This document shows, piece after piece, positions 35,498 to 44,044 of a stretch of DNA of 64,000 bases. The notes under the pieces are model-generated. The model made no database searches. It was not told the origin of the DNA and worked only from the letters and a program-made list of their open reading frames with translations. The stretch's first letter is position 1; every line of letters starts with the position of its first letter. The stretch is from Hyphomonadaceae bacterium (GTDB taxonomy: Bacteria; Pseudomonadota; Alphaproteobacteria; Caulobacterales; Hyphomonadaceae), in the NCBI GenBank assembly GCA_024742355.1, contig JANSYM010000005.1, positions 248,001-312,000 on the forward strand. The letters are read 5' to 3'. The position numbers and the translations under genes are program-made.

Positions 35498-36087
35498 GCC
35501 GTCAACACCTCGCGCACGCGCAAATAATCGAGCAGAGGCAACAGCGGGAGGCCGAGAATGGAAAAATAATCGCCCTCGATTTGAGAGAATAATTGTGCCC
35601 CGCGACTTTCCAATTGATAGGCGCCAACAGTCGTCAGCAACGCCTCTCCGCACTCTTGTATGTAACCATCTATGAAAGTATCACTCAGTGTACGGATTGT
35701 AAGTTTGGGGCGCGCCAGGAAGCGCCAAACAGGCTCGCCATTTTCCGCCACGACAATCGCGGTTTCCAGGTAGTGGGATTTGCCTGATAGCTTTCGCAAA
35801 TGGTTTCTCGCCCTGTCGAGATCGGCGGGCTTGTCGAAGGCTTCATCCCCCAGATTGAGCATCTGGTCTCCGCCAATCACCAGACCTGGTGTCGAGCGCG
35901 ATACTTTCACAGCCTTCATTTCGGCCAGCTGCATAGCCTGGTCTCGTACGCTCAATCCTTCAGCGCGCATGGCGATTTTCGCCGCATCCTCGTCGACATT
36001 GGGTTTGATTGAAACGGCATCCACGCCGGCACCAGCAAGAAGGGCGCGGCGGCTGGCGCTGCCAGAAGCCAGAATAATGTCCAGCAT
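35494..36087 (-). CDS. Maf-family nucleotide pyrophosphatase
   Basis: Maf protein (197 aa), a house-cleaning nucleoside-triphosphate pyrophosphatase. IILASGSASRRALLAGAG is the N-terminal motif, VIGGDQMLNLGDEAFDKP carries the catalytic Asp region and GAYQLESRGAQLFSQIEGDYFSILGLPLLPLL the C-terminal signature. Whether it prefers dTTP/UTP or 7-methyl-GTP is not settled by eye; the QMLNLGD variant resembles the alphaproteobacterial form next to aroE. Start and stop overlap both neighbours. Confidence 0.92.
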   Translation of the reverse strand: MLDIILASGSASRRALLAGAGVDAVSIKPNVDEDAAKIAMRAEGLSVRDQAMQLAEMKAVKVSRSTPGLVIGGDQMLNLGDEAFDKPADLDRARNHLRKLSGKSHYLETAIVVAENGEPVWRFLARPKLTIRTLSDTFIDGYIQECGEALLTTVGAYQLESRGAQLFSQIEGDYFSILGLPLLPLLDYLRVREVLTA

Positions 36088-36911
36088 CAGATGAAGCCCC
36101 GTCTTTCATTAAGCTTGTTGAGAATGGCCGCGGCGGTTTCCTCGACGCTGCGCCGCGAGACGTCGATGACCGGCCATTTATTGCGTTGGAACAGGCGACT
36201 GGCTTCGGTCACTTCGGCGCGCACCGCTTCCTCATCGACATAATTGGTTTTCGTTTGCTCATTCAGCGACATCAAACGCTGGCCGCGAATCTGGAGCAGG
36301 CGCTCCACTCCGATTTTCAGGCCGACCACCATTGGATGCTTTAATTCCTCAACGAGGGACGGGAGCGGAATGCCGGGCACGAGCGGAATGTTGCCCGCTT
36401 TCACGCCGCGATTGGCAAGATAGACACAAGTCGGCGTCTTCGACGTTCGACTGACTCCAAGCAGGACAACATCGGCATCGACCAGGCCGGTAACATTCTG
36501 GCCGTCATCATGATTAAGCGCAAAGTCGATCGCCGAGATGCGTTTGAAATAATCCTCGTTCAGCGCGTGCTGGCTGGCAATTTTCTCGCTCGCCGCGATG
36601 CCGAGATGGCGCGAGAGCATATGGATTGAGGGGTCCAGGACCGGAAGGGTCTGAATGCCGCGCTGGCGGCAGAACTGTTCCAGCTTGCGCCGCAGATTCT
36701 CGTCTGAAACCGTGTACCAGACGACGCCCGGGGCAGCTTCAATCTCGGCCATCACCCGATCGAGCTGACGTTCGGACCGGACCAGGTAATAATTGTGCTC
36801 CAGCGGAATGGTGCGGTCGAACTGCGCGGCCGCAGCGCGCATGACCGCGTTCAACGTCTCGCCCGTGGAATCCGAGACAAGGTGTACATTGAAATAGATA
36901 GAAAGCCGCAT
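36087..36911 (-). CDS. Pyruvate, water/phosphate dikinase regulatory protein (kinase-pyrophosphorylase)
   Basis: DUF299/PpsR-family bifunctional enzyme (274 aa) that phosphorylates PEP synthase or pyruvate phosphate dikinase with ADP and removes the phosphate by phosphorolysis. The P-loop-like VSRTSKTPTCVYLANRG and VPGIPLPSLV segments are characteristic, and the N-terminus FNVHLVSDSTGETLNAVMRAA is typical. Its gene flanks the origin, in the position of the gene that borders Cori in Caulobacter. It heads the leftward operon and overlaps maf by one base. Confidence 0.92.
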   Translation of the reverse strand: MRLSIYFNVHLVSDSTGETLNAVMRAAAAQFDRTIPLEHNYYLVRSERQLDRVMAEIEAAPGVVWYTVSDENLRRKLEQFCRQRGIQTLPVLDPSIHMLSRHLGIAASEKIASQHALNEDYFKRISAIDFALNHDDGQNVTGLVDADVVLLGVSRTSKTPTCVYLANRGVKAGNIPLVPGIPLPSLVEELKHPMVVGLKIGVERLLQIRGQRLMSLNEQTKTNYVDEEAVRAEVTEASRLFQRNKWPVIDVSRRSVEETAAAILNKLNERRGFI

Positions 36912-36969
36912 GACCGCCCTGATTTAATTCACATGTCCTGTGCCGGAAGGGATGGAATTCGACAAGCCC

Positions 36970-36989
36970 TGTGGATGAATTGTGGATAA
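36970..36989. promoter_or_regulatory. Tandem DnaA boxes in the origin
   Basis: TGTGGATGA (one mismatch) and TGTGGATAA (perfect) lie in the same orientation, 11 bp apart or about one helical turn, which suits co-operative DnaA binding. A further TGTGGATAC is at 37157-37165. Confidence 0.8.
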
Positions 36990-37003
36990 GCCGATTGTGC
37001 CCC

Positions 37004-37043
37004 GAATCCGACTCTGAATCGCACAAGTGACCGAATCTGACTC
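37004..37043. promoter_or_regulatory. Cluster of five GANTC (CcrM) sites
   Basis: GANTC occurs at 37004, 37010, 37016, 37033 and 37039, in a 6/6/17/6 spacing. Additional sites are at 37203 and 37268. GANTC is the CcrM methylation site of Alphaproteobacteria and marks replication state. Confidence 0.85.
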
Positions 37044-37086
37044 ATCCGGTTTCCGACCTGTTCCAGACATCTGTTACGCGCCATGG

Positions 37087-37132
37087 TTAACCAATTATTT
37101 ACAATTTTTTCAGACCGTTAACAAAGTGTTAA
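37087..37132. promoter_or_regulatory. CtrA binding sites in the origin
   Basis: A perfect TTAA-CAAAGTG-TTAA lies at 37118-37132 and a near match TTAA-CCAATTA-TTTA at 37087-37101, 31 bp apart, in the AT-rich core. CtrA is the cell-cycle regulator that blocks initiation at Cori in Caulobacter. Confidence 0.8.
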
Positions 37133-37261
37133 CCTTGCACCGATCTGGGGACAAGCTGTGGATACAGCAGGGACAAATGACCTCACCTGATGTTTTCCAC
37201 GAGACTCCGGTCTTAATAATGATAAGTCGTTTCGAGTTTGGTTTTGGGTTTGAAAATTCTA

Positions 37262-38305
37262 ATGGCTGAGTCGCGTTCATCACGTTTTCTGAAAGTGCTT
37301 TCTGGCACCCCCACGTCTCCCGTACCCATCTGGATGATGCGACAAGCCGGACGGCATTTGCCTGAATATCTCGAGCTGAGATCGCGGGCGAAAGACTTTC
37401 TCGATTTTTGCTATTCTCCGTCCATGGCAGCCGAAGCCACACTGCAACCCATTCGCCGATACGATATGGATGCGGCGATCCTGTTTGCCGATATTCTCCT
37501 CATTCTCGATGCCATTGGTCTAGATGTACGGTTCGAGAAAGGTGTGGGACCGATCGTCGAAACTGTGAAAGATGAAAGCGATCTCCGGCGCGTTCCTATG
37601 GAAAAGGCGGTTCAGAGATTGTCGCCCGTTTATGAAACAGTAGATCGGGTTCGCTCAAAACTAGATCCAGACAAAGGACTGATCGGATTTTGCGGGGCGC
37701 CCTGGACTGTAGCGCTCTATGCGATTGAAGGGCGCGGCGGAACGGACAAAAGTACAGCCCGCGGATGGGGGTACTCAAATCCGGATCTTCTAAACAAGCT
37801 GCTCGATCTGATCATTGAGGCGAGTGCGCAATATCTGGCGGAACAGGTGAAGGCCGGCGCAGATGCATTGATGATCTTCGAATCCTGGGCAGAGGGTTTG
37901 CCATCGGACCTGTTCCAAACTCTGGTAATCGACCCGAATGCGCGGCTGGTTCAGCGGCTTCGAGATATGGGTATTTCTGTGCCGATTATCGGATTTCCAC
38001 GCGGCGCCGCGACCATGTTGAAATCGTACACATCACAGGTGGCGGTGAATGGCGTGGGTCTCGATACGGCGATTGATCCTGGGCATATTGCTGGCGCGGT
38101 GCCGCAAAATATGGCGGTGCAAGGTCATCTCGATCCTCTTTTATTGATCGCTGGCGGCGATGCGATGGATGCGCGGGTTCGAGAATTACTCGCTGCATAT
38201 TCGGGCCGGCCACACATTTTCAATCTCGGCCATGGTGTCCGGCCGGAAACGCCGATTGCACATGTTGAGCGCGTCGTTGAACTCGTCCGGGAAGGGGCGC
38301 AATAG
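37262..38305 (+). CDS. hemE: Uroporphyrinogen decarboxylase
   Basis: HemE (347 aa) removes four carboxyls from uroporphyrinogen III to give coproporphyrinogen III in heme synthesis. PIWMMRQAGRHLPEYLELR is the N-terminal signature with active-site residues, and IGFCGAPWTVALYAIEGRGG is the second. I start it at the ATG at 37262 (MAESRSSRF); the ORF track adds eight residues from an upstream GTG/TTG. It borders the origin, so promoter activity there could affect initiation, as reported for Caulobacter hemE. Confidence 0.95.
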   Translation: MAESRSSRFLKVLSGTPTSPVPIWMMRQAGRHLPEYLELRSRAKDFLDFCYSPSMAAEATLQPIRRYDMDAAILFADILLILDAIGLDVRFEKGVGPIVETVKDESDLRRVPMEKAVQRLSPVYETVDRVRSKLDPDKGLIGFCGAPWTVALYAIEGRGGTDKSTARGWGYSNPDLLNKLLDLIIEASAQYLAEQVKAGADALMIFESWAEGLPSDLFQTLVIDPNARLVQRLRDMGISVPIIGFPRGAATMLKSYTSQVAVNGVGLDTAIDPGHIAGAVPQNMAVQGHLDPLLLIAGGDAMDARVRELLAAYSGRPHIFNLGHGVRPETPIAHVERVVELVREGAQ

Positions 38306-40161: not shown

Positions 40162-41484
40162 ATGGCGATGCGCCGGGACACAATATGTGCTCTGGCAAGC
40201 GGCCATCCGCCCGCGGCCATTTCCGTGATCCGGGTTTCCGGCCCGGAGACCACAAGCATCATCGCTGAGCGTTTATCAGTGTCGCAATTGAAGCCGCGAC
40301 ATGCGACGCTGGTCGAGTTGAGATCTGAATCCGGTGATCAAATTGATTCCGGCCTCGCGGTCTTCATGCTTGGCCCTGCGAGCTATACCGGCGAAGACAC
40401 GCTGGAAATCTCGCTCCACGGCGGACGGATGATCACCGAACTGGCGCTGCAATCGATCATGTCCGCGGGCGCGCGCCTGGCCGAGCCTGGAGAGTTCACC
40501 CGCCGCGCATTCGAGGCCGGAAAGCTCGATCTCACGCGCGCCGAAGCGGTTGCGGACCTGATTGATGCTGAAAGCGAGGCCCAACTCGACCAGGCTTTGA
40601 AGCAAATGGATGGCGCGCTTGAAACGCTTTATTCCGGTTGGCGCGAAGACCTGACAGAAACGCTGGCGCTCCTCGAGGCGAGTATCGATTTTCCCGATGA
40701 GGAAGATGCGCCCGAACGAGTCGACGCCCCGGTTCGGCAAAAGCTCGAGAATTTGAAGTCGGCCCTGCAACAGGCGCTCGCCGACGGCAATGTGACCGAA
40801 CGTATTCGCGACGGATTCCGAATTGCCATTCTCGGCAAACCGAATGCCGGGAAGTCCACACTTCTCAATCAACTCGCCAAGCGCGAAGCGGCGATTGTCA
40901 CCGACATACCGGGTACGACCCGTGATGTGGTCGAAGTCCGACTGACCATGGGCGGATATCTGGTGTGGGTTTCGGACACAGCCGGACTTCGCGAAACGCA
41001 CGATGTGGTCGAAGCCGAAGGCGTGCGCCGGGCCTTGAAAGCGGGTGATGAAGCCGACCTTCGGATCTGGCTTCATGATGCCCGCGAACCGTTTCGGTCA
41101 GACCGGGTGCGACCGGGCGATCTCGTGGTTTCCAACAAGTCGGACCTGGTCGACCCAAAAAGTGTTTCACGTGAAACATTGGCGATTTCTGCGAAGGCCG
41201 GAGACGGCATTGATGAGGTCGAGGCGGAAATTGTGGCCCGGATTTCGAGCCTGACAAAGAATGTCACCGCGCCCATCATCACGCGGGCCCGGCATCGCCA
41301 GGGAATTGAGAGGGCTCTGGCGCATCTCGAAACCGCATCTCAAAATCTGGACAATGGCATCGGCGCCGAACTTGTTTCGGAAGATGTGCGCCTCGCCAGC
41401 CGTGACCTCGGAACTTTGACCGGCCATGTCGATCCAGAGTCTGTTCTCGGCGCTGTGTTTTCTTCCTTCTGCATCGGTAAATAG
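40162..41484 (+). CDS. mnmE: tRNA uridine-5-carboxymethylaminomethyl modification GTPase MnmE
   Basis: MnmE (440 aa) works with MnmG to modify the wobble uridine U34 of certain tRNAs. The N-terminal formyl-THF-binding domain starts TICALASGHPPAAISVIRVSG; the G domain inserted in the helical domain has GKPNAGKST, DIPGTTRD, DTAGLR and SNKSD. The C-terminus is the obligatory FCIGK. The first perfect parS lies within the G domain (SVSRET). A second ATG two codons downstream is an alternative start. It begins 2 bp after rho. Confidence 0.97.
   Translation: MAMRRDTICALASGHPPAAISVIRVSGPETTSIIAERLSVSQLKPRHATLVELRSESGDQIDSGLAVFMLGPASYTGEDTLEISLHGGRMITELALQSIMSAGARLAEPGEFTRRAFEAGKLDLTRAEAVADLIDAESEAQLDQALKQMDGALETLYSGWREDLTETLALLEASIDFPDEEDAPERVDAPVRQKLENLKSALQQALADGNVTERIRDGFRIAILGKPNAGKSTLLNQLAKREAAIVTDIPGTTRDVVEVRLTMGGYLVWVSDTAGLRETHDVVEAEGVRRALKAGDEADLRIWLHDAREPFRSDRVRPGDLVVSNKSDLVDPKSVSRETLAISAKAGDGIDEVEAEIVARISSLTKNVTAPIITRARHRQGIERALAHLETASQNLDNGIGAELVSEDVRLASRDLGTLTGHVDPESVLGAVFSSFCIGK
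41163..41178. other. parS site 1 (inside mnmE)
   Basis: TGTTTCACGTGAAACA, the perfect 16-bp ParB-binding palindrome, read within the codons for VSRET of MnmE. Confidence 0.95.
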
Positions 41485-41538: not shown

Positions 41539-43419
41539 ATGCAAGCAGATATGAAATTCGATGTCATCGTGGTCGGTGGCGGCCACGCTGGGTGCGAAGC
41601 CGCATCCGCGGCGGCGCGCATGGGCGCGACGACGGCGCTGATCACCCACAAAATCGAAACCATCGGTGAAATGTCTTGCAATCCGGCGATTGGCGGCTTG
41701 GGCAAAGGCCATTTGGTGCGCGAGATTGATGCGTTGGATGGATTGATGGGTCGCGTCTCGGACAAATCCGGCATCCAGTTCCGCATGCTCAATCGCTCAA
41801 AAGGGCCAGCGGTCTGGGGACCGCGCGCGCAGATTGATCGCAAACTCTATCGCAAAGCGATGCAGGCAGAGATCCTTCATCATGAGAATCTCTCCGTCGT
41901 TGAGGATGGTGTTGAGGATCTGAGCGTCTCGGGCGAAAAAGTGTCGGGCGTTATTGGCGAGTCCGGAACGGAATATACTGCATCGGCGGTCGTCATCACG
42001 ACGGGGACATTCCTGAAAGGGATTATCCATCGCGGCGCCGAACGCATTCCGGCCGGGCGCGTCGGAGAAAAACCGGCCATTGGTTTGGCGGAGCGCCTAT
42101 ATGCGCTCGAGCTCCCGATGGGGCGATTGAAAACCGGAACGCCGGCGCGGCTGAACGGTGAGACCATTGATTGGGACCCGCTCGAGAAACAACCCGCCGA
42201 TGACGATCCGATCCCGTTTTCGTATCTGACGGACCGTATCGAGGTGCCGCAGGTTTCATGTGGGATCACCTTCACCAATCCAGAGACGCACGAGATTATC
42301 GCGGAGAATATCGAGCAATCCGCAGTCTATTCCGGTGCCATTGCCGGGCGCGGCCCACGCTATTGTCCGTCGATCGAAGACAAGATCCATCGCTTCGCTG
42401 ACAAAACGCGCCATCAGATTTTCCTGGAACCAGAAGGCCTCGATGATCCGACGGTCTATCCAAATGGGATTTCCACGTCGCTTCCACGCGATGTCCAGGA
42501 TGCTTTCATTCGAAAGATCGAGGGGCTCGAAAATGTCGAGATCCTCGAATACGGCTATGCGATCGAATATGATTATGTCGATCCGCGCGCTCTGGACTCC
42601 GGACTCCAGGTGAAAGCGCTTCCCGGATTGTTCCTCGCCGGACAAATCAATGGCACGACAGGATATGAAGAAGCAGGCGCGCAGGGCCTCGTCGCCGGAT
42701 TGAACGCGGTCCGTTATGGGCGCGGTGATGACAATGCGCTGTTTGATCGGGCCGAGGCGTATATCGGAGTCCTGATCGATGATCTCGTGACGCGCGGTGT
42801 GACGGAACCCTATCGAATGTTTACATCCCGCGCCGAGTATCGGCTGTCACTGCGGTCTGACAATGCCGACCAACGCCTGACACAGCGCGGCATTGATCTC
42901 GGCTTGGTCGGAAAAACCCGCGCCGAAATGTTTCACGTGAAACATGCGGCGCTGAAATCCGGACGGGATTTGATGCAATCGGTTCAGATGACACCCAATG
43001 AGGCGCAAAAGCTCGGATGGAAAGTCAATCAGGATGGCCAGCGCCGGAGCGCCTGGGAATATCTTGCCTATCCAAGCATTGATATGGCGGCGATTGAATC
43101 GGCCTTCCCGGAGATTGCCGCCCTGGATGGGATGGTCAAAACGCAACTCGAAATCGAGGCGATGTATGCCGGCTATATCGAGCGCCAGAAGGATGATGTC
43201 GAAGCCTTGCGCCGCGAAGAGGCTTTGGCGCTTCCGAGTGATCTTGATTATGCCGCGGTCGGCGGCCTGACCAATGAAGTCCGCGCGAAACTGGAATTGA
43301 TCCGGCCGGCGACATTGGGGCAGGCGGGTCGGATTGAAGGGATAACGCCCGGCGCATTAACGGCGCTGCTCGCCTATGTTCGCCGCCGCCCTGAACGAAA
43401 GACGTCCGCCCATGCGTGA
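41539..43419 (+). CDS. mnmG: tRNA uridine-5-carboxymethylaminomethyl modification enzyme MnmG (GidA)
   Basis: MnmG (626 aa) is the FAD- and NADH-using partner of Mnm[23 protein letters not shown] is the FAD loop, [24 protein letters not shown] the first GidA signature and [22 protein letters not shown] the second. A perfect parS is embedded as MFHVKH at about residue 465. The last eight bases overlap rsmG. Confidence 0.97.
42929..42944. other. parS site 2 (inside mnmG)
   Basis: A second perfect TGTTTCACGTGAAACA, here read in a different frame (MFHVKH), 1.77 kb from the first. Confidence 0.95.
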
Positions 43420-44044
43420 CAAAGACGGATTCGGGCCCGAAGACCTGAAAGACCATGTCGATGTTTCACGTGAAACACTCGAGCGGCTTCAGATCATTGT
43501 TGGTGAGCTCGACGCCTGGCGCCGCAAGACCAATCTGATTGGCCCTTCCGAATTCGGCCGGGTCTGGCGTCGACACGTCCTCGATTCTATTCAGCTCCAT
43601 CCGCACGTTCCGACTTCAGGACATACGATTGATCTCGGATCAGGGTCGGGATTTCCGGCCTTGATACTCGCCGCGTGCGCTACGGACCCGGCCGCAAAAT
43701 TCTCCTTAGTGGAGAGTGTTGGAAAGAAGTGCGCCTTTCTGCGCGCGGCGATCGAAGCGGCGAATTTGCCCGCCAAAGTCATCCAGGGCCGGGTCGAAGC
43801 GATTAAGCCCGTCCAAGCCGATTGCATAACGGCGCGGGCCTTCGCGCCATTACCGAAATTAATCAATTATGCCGCCCCCTGGTTTGAGAATGGCGCGTAT
43901 GGCGTGATTCCGAAAGGTCGACGCTGGGAAGAGGAATTGACGGATGCCTTGGAATCTTGGAGATTCGCCTATGAAGCGATTCCCAGCGTGAGCGGGGATG
44001 GGGCTATATTGAAAATCTCGGAGGTTTCACGTGTCGAACGCTAA
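43412..44044 (+). CDS. rsmG: 16S rRNA (guanine527-N7)-methyltransferase
   Basis: RsmG/GidB (210 aa) methylates G527 of 16S rRNA with S-adenosylmethionine. [17 protein letters not shown] is the SAM motif and [16 protein letters not shown] the later conserved segment. The N-terminal [11 protein letters not shown] carries the third parS. I use the ATG at 43412; the ORF-track ATG at 43376 would extend it 12 residues into mnmG. The end overlaps the parA start by 14 bp. Confidence 0.95.
43462..43477. other. parS site 3 (inside rsmG)
   Basis: A third perfect TGTTTCACGTGAAACA, encoding the VSRET segment of RsmG, about 0.53 kb from site 2. Confidence 0.95.
44023..44038. other. Degenerate parS over the parA ribosome binding site and start
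   Basis: GGTTTCACGTGTCGAA keeps the central GTTTCACGTG of parS but loses the right arm. The GTG inside it is the parA start codon and the GGAGG Shine-Dalgarno ends on its left edge. Confidence 0.6.

Follow-up and report, generated by a model that had tools for sequence, protein, structure and literature searches.

What might five GANTC sites, the targets of the methyltransferase CcrM, be doing within 40 bp of one another beside the DnaA boxes of a chromosome origin? CcrM has been known for decades, and CcrM-type methylation takes place late in the cell cycle. Whether GANTC methylation gates a DnaA-dependent origin is a question that Caulobacter has so far largely been used to decide, but the Caulobacteraceae sampled here are without a GANTC concentration at the origin. 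The array considered here lies in a stretch of 64,000 nucleotides from a Hyphomonadaceae bacterium (the window, in which positions are counted below). A preliminary description of this stretch suggested that the array is a hemimethylation sensor, which is plausible, perhaps with GcrA or a SeqA-like protein as its reader.

A recount on the window found all seven coordinates of that description exact, namely the five array sites at 37004, 37010, 37016, 37033 and 37039 and two further sites at 37203 and 37268. The exact 6-bp steps hold for sites 1-3, and the same step recurs between sites 4 and 5; the tandem DnaA boxes said to adjoin the array are present at 36970 and 36981. The two further sites do not flank hemE as had been supposed, as 37203 lies approximately 55-59 bp upstream of the ATG at 37262 and 37268 falls inside hemE codons 3-4. 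The array itself consists of two copies of the 13-mer CCGAATCYGACTC, 29 bp apart, with one more GANTC between the copies. The features of the region are as follows:

36087..36911, minus strand: gene left of the origin, a 274-aa reading frame in the ORF list, RRP-like, putatively a PEP synthetase regulatory gene (RRP/PpsR-type) by its sequence and place
36912..37261, no strand: putative origin intergenic region of the Caulobacter Cori type, upstream of hemE (GC skew, DnaA boxes, CtrA box, parS nearby)
36970..36978, minus strand: DnaA box TGTGGATGA, first of the tandem pair, aligned in relatives; the sister genus g5 has TGTGANTC there
36981..36989, minus strand: perfect DnaA box TTATCCACA, from the box scan
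37002..37014, plus strand: CCGAATCYGACTC copy 1, with GANTC 37004 and 37010; the third base of the site is constant in aligned close relatives keeping the site
37016..37025, plus strand: GAATCGCACA, in which the third GANTC joins a CACA core (alignment)
37031..37043, plus strand: CCGAATCYGACTC copy 2, with GANTC 37033 and 37039; several g5 genomes have GAATCYGACTC at the same column
37087..37102, plus strand: CtrA-like half site (TTAACCA), with the beginning of an AT-rich candidate unwinding region, aligned in relatives
37118..37132, plus strand: CtrA box TTAACAAAGTGTTAA, TTAA-N7-TTAA, from the pattern search
37158..37166, minus strand: DnaA-box-like TGTGGATAC near hemE, from sequence reading
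37203..37207, plus strand: single GANTC upstream of hemE, which most close relatives retain (alignment column 330)
37262..38305, plus strand: presumably hemE (uroporphyrinogen decarboxylase), named by gene order, with GANTC 37268 within codons 3-4; in the ORF list, and recovered in relatives as the hemE-side gene

Judged from its sequence, the region looks like a Caulobacter-type chromosome origin, with its position beside hemE, its DnaA boxes and a TTAA-N7-TTAA CtrA box. The GC skew switches around 36-38 kb of the window, and three parS-like palindromes TTTCACGTGAAA (41165-41176, 42931-42942 and 43464-43475) are situated 4-6.5 kb from the origin; the first two fall within reading frames that resemble mnmE and mnmG (peptide MFHVKH). 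The bacterium is a marine Henriciella, and its named relatives by hemE belong to Henriciella and other Hyphomonadaceae.

The array is real, exceptional in its genome, and conserved in position in close relatives. The 64-kb window contains 165 GANTC sites, on average one every 388 bp, which is less than half of the 356 expected from dinucleotide shuffles, which means that GANTC is avoided overall in this stretch. The largest number of sites within 40 bp in 100 shuffles of the window was four, and five within 40 bp occurred in 0.025% of trials with 165 sites placed uniformly. Genome-wide clustering was measured by pattern searches, which located the 17-bp triple GANTCNGANTCNGANTC once in the 3.46-Mb genome, at the array, and no second run of five GANTC in 40 bp in the same genome. 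As to whether similar clusters occur elsewhere in the genome, which would have spoken against a special role, the answer is therefore divided: five sites in 40 bp are confined to the array, but looser triples are not rare and there is one cluster of five in 53 bp (G000:C1:319802-319854), the sole other five-site cluster. Looser triples gave 31 matches genome-wide, three of which are this array, and their uniqueness to the array was rejected (31 genome-wide versus 8 in the reversed control). Among Henriciella clade 2, five genomes (G044, G047, G050, G003 and G013) have 1-2 triples versus 10-15 in the reversed control and are thus far poorer in them; the window's genome, unlike those five, has triples above its reversed control (27 versus 8), a strong difference in GANTC avoidance between members of a single genus.

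Alignment of the Henriciella loci bears out conservation of the array in close relatives. All five sites are found at unchanged positions in Henriciella clade 1 (L003-L006 and L042), three array sites are left in L034 and L007, and only the first two in L036/L037, and in these close relatives the array block has been kept while the flanks diverged. The linker base between paired sites shows C/T exchange, every retained site has kept its third base (A, C, A, A, C along the array), and non-GANTC bases in the array, such as GCACAAGTGAaCG, are likewise conserved. Since N is invariant in Henriciella, an extra sequence constraint must be admitted, and together with the conserved bases between sites it points to sequence-specific recognition beyond methylation, which may act on the array. 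In Henriciella clade 2, to which the named H. pelagia locus (L038) belongs, 3-7 GANTC sites are scattered without forming an array. Conservation of spacing held up in part: the 6-bp distance is kept where GAATCYGACTC is present, but other genera carry GACTCGACTC, GANTCACA or GAWTCGAATCRTTGACTC, and the 6-bp step was rejected as a conserved feature beyond the GAATCYGACTC pair.

A survey of the 400 bp upstream of hemE at 122 loci of the order, with positions -800 to -400 as the neighbouring stretch, extends the GANTC concentration at the origin to several related genera. The mean number of GANTC sites per origin was 12.0 in g10 (one genome), 10.5 in g4, 8.6 in g5, 5.7 in g1 and 5.0 in g6, versus 1.0 to 2.3 in the neighbouring 400 bp of the same groups; control palindromes averaged 0 to 5 at the origins, and shuffles remained well below the GANTC counts. 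Close pairs of the form GANTC(0-1)GANTC numbered 16 in g1, 19 in g4 and 8 in g5, compared with 0.2-0.4 in shuffles. When 21 stretches of 20 or 64 kb were scanned in 400-bp windows, GANTC density peaked at the origin in 19; in another the origin tied for first place, and in the last a window elsewhere was denser. The density at Hyphomonadaceae origins was approximately 10 to 31 sites per kb versus approximately 1.3 to 3.4 in coding DNA. Family f2, taken to be Caulobacteraceae from its place in the order, has 2.05 GANTC sites at the origin versus 2.23 next door, without excess over flanks or shuffles. On the single-gene hemE tree, the poor groups g8, g2, g9 and g3 fall between the GANTC-rich ones (g4/g10, g5 and Henriciella clade 1), and because the latter are not monophyletic on this tree, repeated gain or loss of such origins is suggested. 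The dense array is missing in Henriciella clade 2, g2, g3 and g8, and it is therefore not essential to the family. Considering that the flanking sequence differs from genus to genus, GANTC is the part that these origins have in common.

The sister genus g5 provides the clearest view of how the sites change. Across its seven majority GANTC columns, identity is 0.92 for G, 0.90 for A, 0.60 for N, 0.90 for T and 0.79 for C, with a background of 0.62, and at two columns GANTC is present in 13 of 13 genomes with three or four different bases at N. Selection for the CcrM target itself would give such a pattern. Many g5 sites read GANTCACA or TGTGANTC at alignment positions where relatives carry DnaA boxes; the 13 g5 origins together contain 56 copies of GANTCACA in either orientation, compared with 0.8 in shuffles, and six of the 13 genomes carry a single tandem GANTCACA pair, located at the origin. 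We regard GANTCACA as a putative hybrid of CcrM site and DnaA box, with a partial match to the latter. The overlap of overrepresented origin GANTC with weak DnaA-box-like sequence is clear in g5 and is represented by one aligned site in the window, GAATCGCACA, whose column is DnaA-box-like in related origins (AAATCCACA, GACTCACAGG and TTTCCACAG).

A different array is found in named loci of Devosia, which belongs to another order. It has the form GAATCGAATC-nTT-GACTC-gg(GAGTC) and is flanked by a DnaA-like box, CACAGG, on one side and by a CtrA site on the other. The pattern was detected in 33 of 75 genomes of the genus, mostly once per genome, and 27 of the 30 loci read have origin architecture by sequence, the other three (L244, L248 and L262) being matches elsewhere. 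Among these 27 origin loci, the CtrA box is situated at exactly +31 bp from the array in 26, and a hemE motif lies approximately 290 bp downstream in most. The sequence of the Devosia array, GAWTCGAATCRTTGACTC, is fixed, with variation at the first N only (L074, L054, L053, L077, L051 and L245-L273). This fixed spacing of DnaA box, GANTC and CtrA site represents a small mutable target, and Devosia, Henriciella and two other Hyphomonadaceae genus groups are lineages in which the gating question should be reopened.

The explanation that we favour, with a confidence that stays on the tentative side, is that the array is a CcrM-site module of a DnaA/CtrA origin that would tie DnaA assembly to the methylation state. 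CcrM would methylate the array sites late in the cell cycle, and after initiation both daughter origins would be hemimethylated until CcrM returns. The weak boxes that separate the strong tandem boxes from the CtrA/AT-rich region could then load DnaA differently according to the methylation state, with the result that, until its remethylation, a new origin would have a lower competence or respond more strongly to CtrA. A dedicated reader would be unnecessary, as the state could be sensed directly by DnaA or through its competition with CtrA. This explanation is supported by GANTC as the common part across genera, the free N in g5, the fixed distance between array and CtrA box in Devosia and the unique density in the genome, and also by the GANTC concentration at origins of several genera, the abundance of GANTCACA in g5 origins, the alignment of the third window site with a DnaA-box-like column, the CcrM and GcrA genes of the genome and the ori2 result from A. 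tumefaciens given below; it is weakened by the invariant N in close relatives, the lack of the array in clade 2, g2, g3 and g8, and the partial nature of the DnaA-box match in GANTCACA. Taken together, the comparisons suggest, without amounting to proof, that origin methylation helps to time replication in array-bearing lineages.

The main rival, which we consider rather doubtful, is a sequence-specific protein that binds CCGAATCYGACTC as an 11-13-mer in its two copies 29 bp apart, GANTC and its methylation being incidental or secondary. The fixed N of each retained site, the retention of GCACAAGTGAaCG in close relatives and the near-fixed Devosia sequence would all fit such a protein, whereas across genera both sequence and spacing vary and GANTC alone is shared, N is free in g5, and the same origins have concentrations of single GANTC sites in other places as well. 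Methylation could also be read by a known regulator. In relatives, GcrA acts on GANTC-containing promoters, and the array might be a methylated GcrA/sigma70 control site for transcription of the RRP gene, hemE or an antisense RNA. Both CcrM (match to PDB 6pbd, E 2.6e-160) and GcrA (match to 7ye1) are encoded in the window's genome. An effect of GcrA on repC at A. tumefaciens ori2 has been reported (PMC11514494), and GcrA of Brevundimonas has no strong extended motif; the motif may be species-specific (PMC7987155). Positive evidence for GcrA as the reader was nevertheless not obtained: none of the five array sites fits the extended motif YGAKTCK, which occurs at 7 of 85 GANTC sites in g1 origins and 8 of 112 in g5 and is thus not enriched, these shares being below the approximately one quarter that random GANTC sites would give, and a consensus scan gave no promoter-like hexamers over the array. 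We therefore judge a GcrA control site to be unlikely. The SeqA-like reader of the preliminary description had to be abandoned, as a search of the window's genome for the SeqA family (PF03925) gave no match while the E. coli control was positive.

Two further explanations would dispense with a reader altogether. N6-methyladenine lowers duplex stability, and the methylated adenines might have a mainly physical effect beside the unwinding region, in the form of a weaker duplex or an altered curvature. The location of the array between the DnaA boxes and the AT-rich CtrA region would suit such an effect, but the array is not AT-rich, is separated from the window's AT-rich stretch by approximately 50 bp and has an ordinary single-strand fold (z -0.05), all of which makes a mainly physical role quite improbable. 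The array might instead have arisen neutrally, when a local repeat was duplicated within a short lineage, and have no function of its own, given that CCGAATCYGACTC copy 1 looks like a duplicate of copy 2 (the copy common to g5) and that Henriciella clade 2 lives without the array. The retention of the block while its flanks diverge already strains a neutral origin, and so does the occurrence of independent dense arrays, in Devosia as in other genera, which leaves it the least probable of the explanations.

Several known systems help to place the CcrM-site module that we favour. The Caulobacter crescentus origin, Cori, shares the hemE-side position, DnaA boxes, TTAA-N7-TTAA CtrA boxes, GANTC sites, CcrM and GcrA with the locus described here; in contrast, sampled Caulobacteraceae origins contain approximately 2 GANTC sites per 400 bp, equal to flanks and shuffles, and no tandem array. 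GANTC at the origin has already been reported for Caulobacter and its close relatives (PMC3973325). A ccrM deletion in Caulobacter left DNA content near normal, and its authors concluded that CcrM is not needed for initiation control (PMC3973325); this result weakens our preferred explanation, although it comes from a family whose origins are not enriched over their flanks. E. coli oriC is rich in GATC, some of which overlaps weak DnaA boxes (PMC4285127). GANTC-rich Hyphomonadaceae origins resemble the oriC/Dam/SeqA system in that methylation sites are overrepresented in the origin and lie partly over weak DnaA boxes, and differ from it in using GANTC and CcrM rather than GATC and Dam and in lacking a SeqA homologue in the window's genome. 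In repABC replicons, origins or control regions (A. tumefaciens ori2 and pTi) are GANTC-rich (PMC11514494, PMC6090056), and CcrM overexpression in A. tumefaciens over-initiates GANTC-rich ori2 and not ori1 (PMC11514494). The likeness lies in the concentration of GANTC at the origin, which in repABC includes control promoters and is accompanied by an effect of CcrM dosage on ori2 initiation; however, those origins are RepC-dependent and plasmid-type, whereas the present one would be a DnaA/CtrA chromosomal origin with the array next to DnaA boxes. A literature search of partial coverage found no published description of the Hyphomonadaceae or Devosia arrays. By analogy with oriC, it is possible, though we would call it doubtful, that CcrM-site arrays were built independently into the DnaA/CtrA origins of Henriciella clade 1, g4/g10, g5 and Devosia, producing methylation-gated origins comparable to oriC/Dam without SeqA, through methylatable DnaA-box hybrids such as GANTCACA or through another reader.

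A second GANTC cluster, GAATCtaaGATTCaGATTC, is present in g4 origins (e.g., L114, L126 and L137) approximately 60-75 bp upstream of hemE, where it could possibly mark a CcrM-dependent hemE promoter, and families f3 and f5 likewise include genomes with GANTC pairs close to the hemE start.
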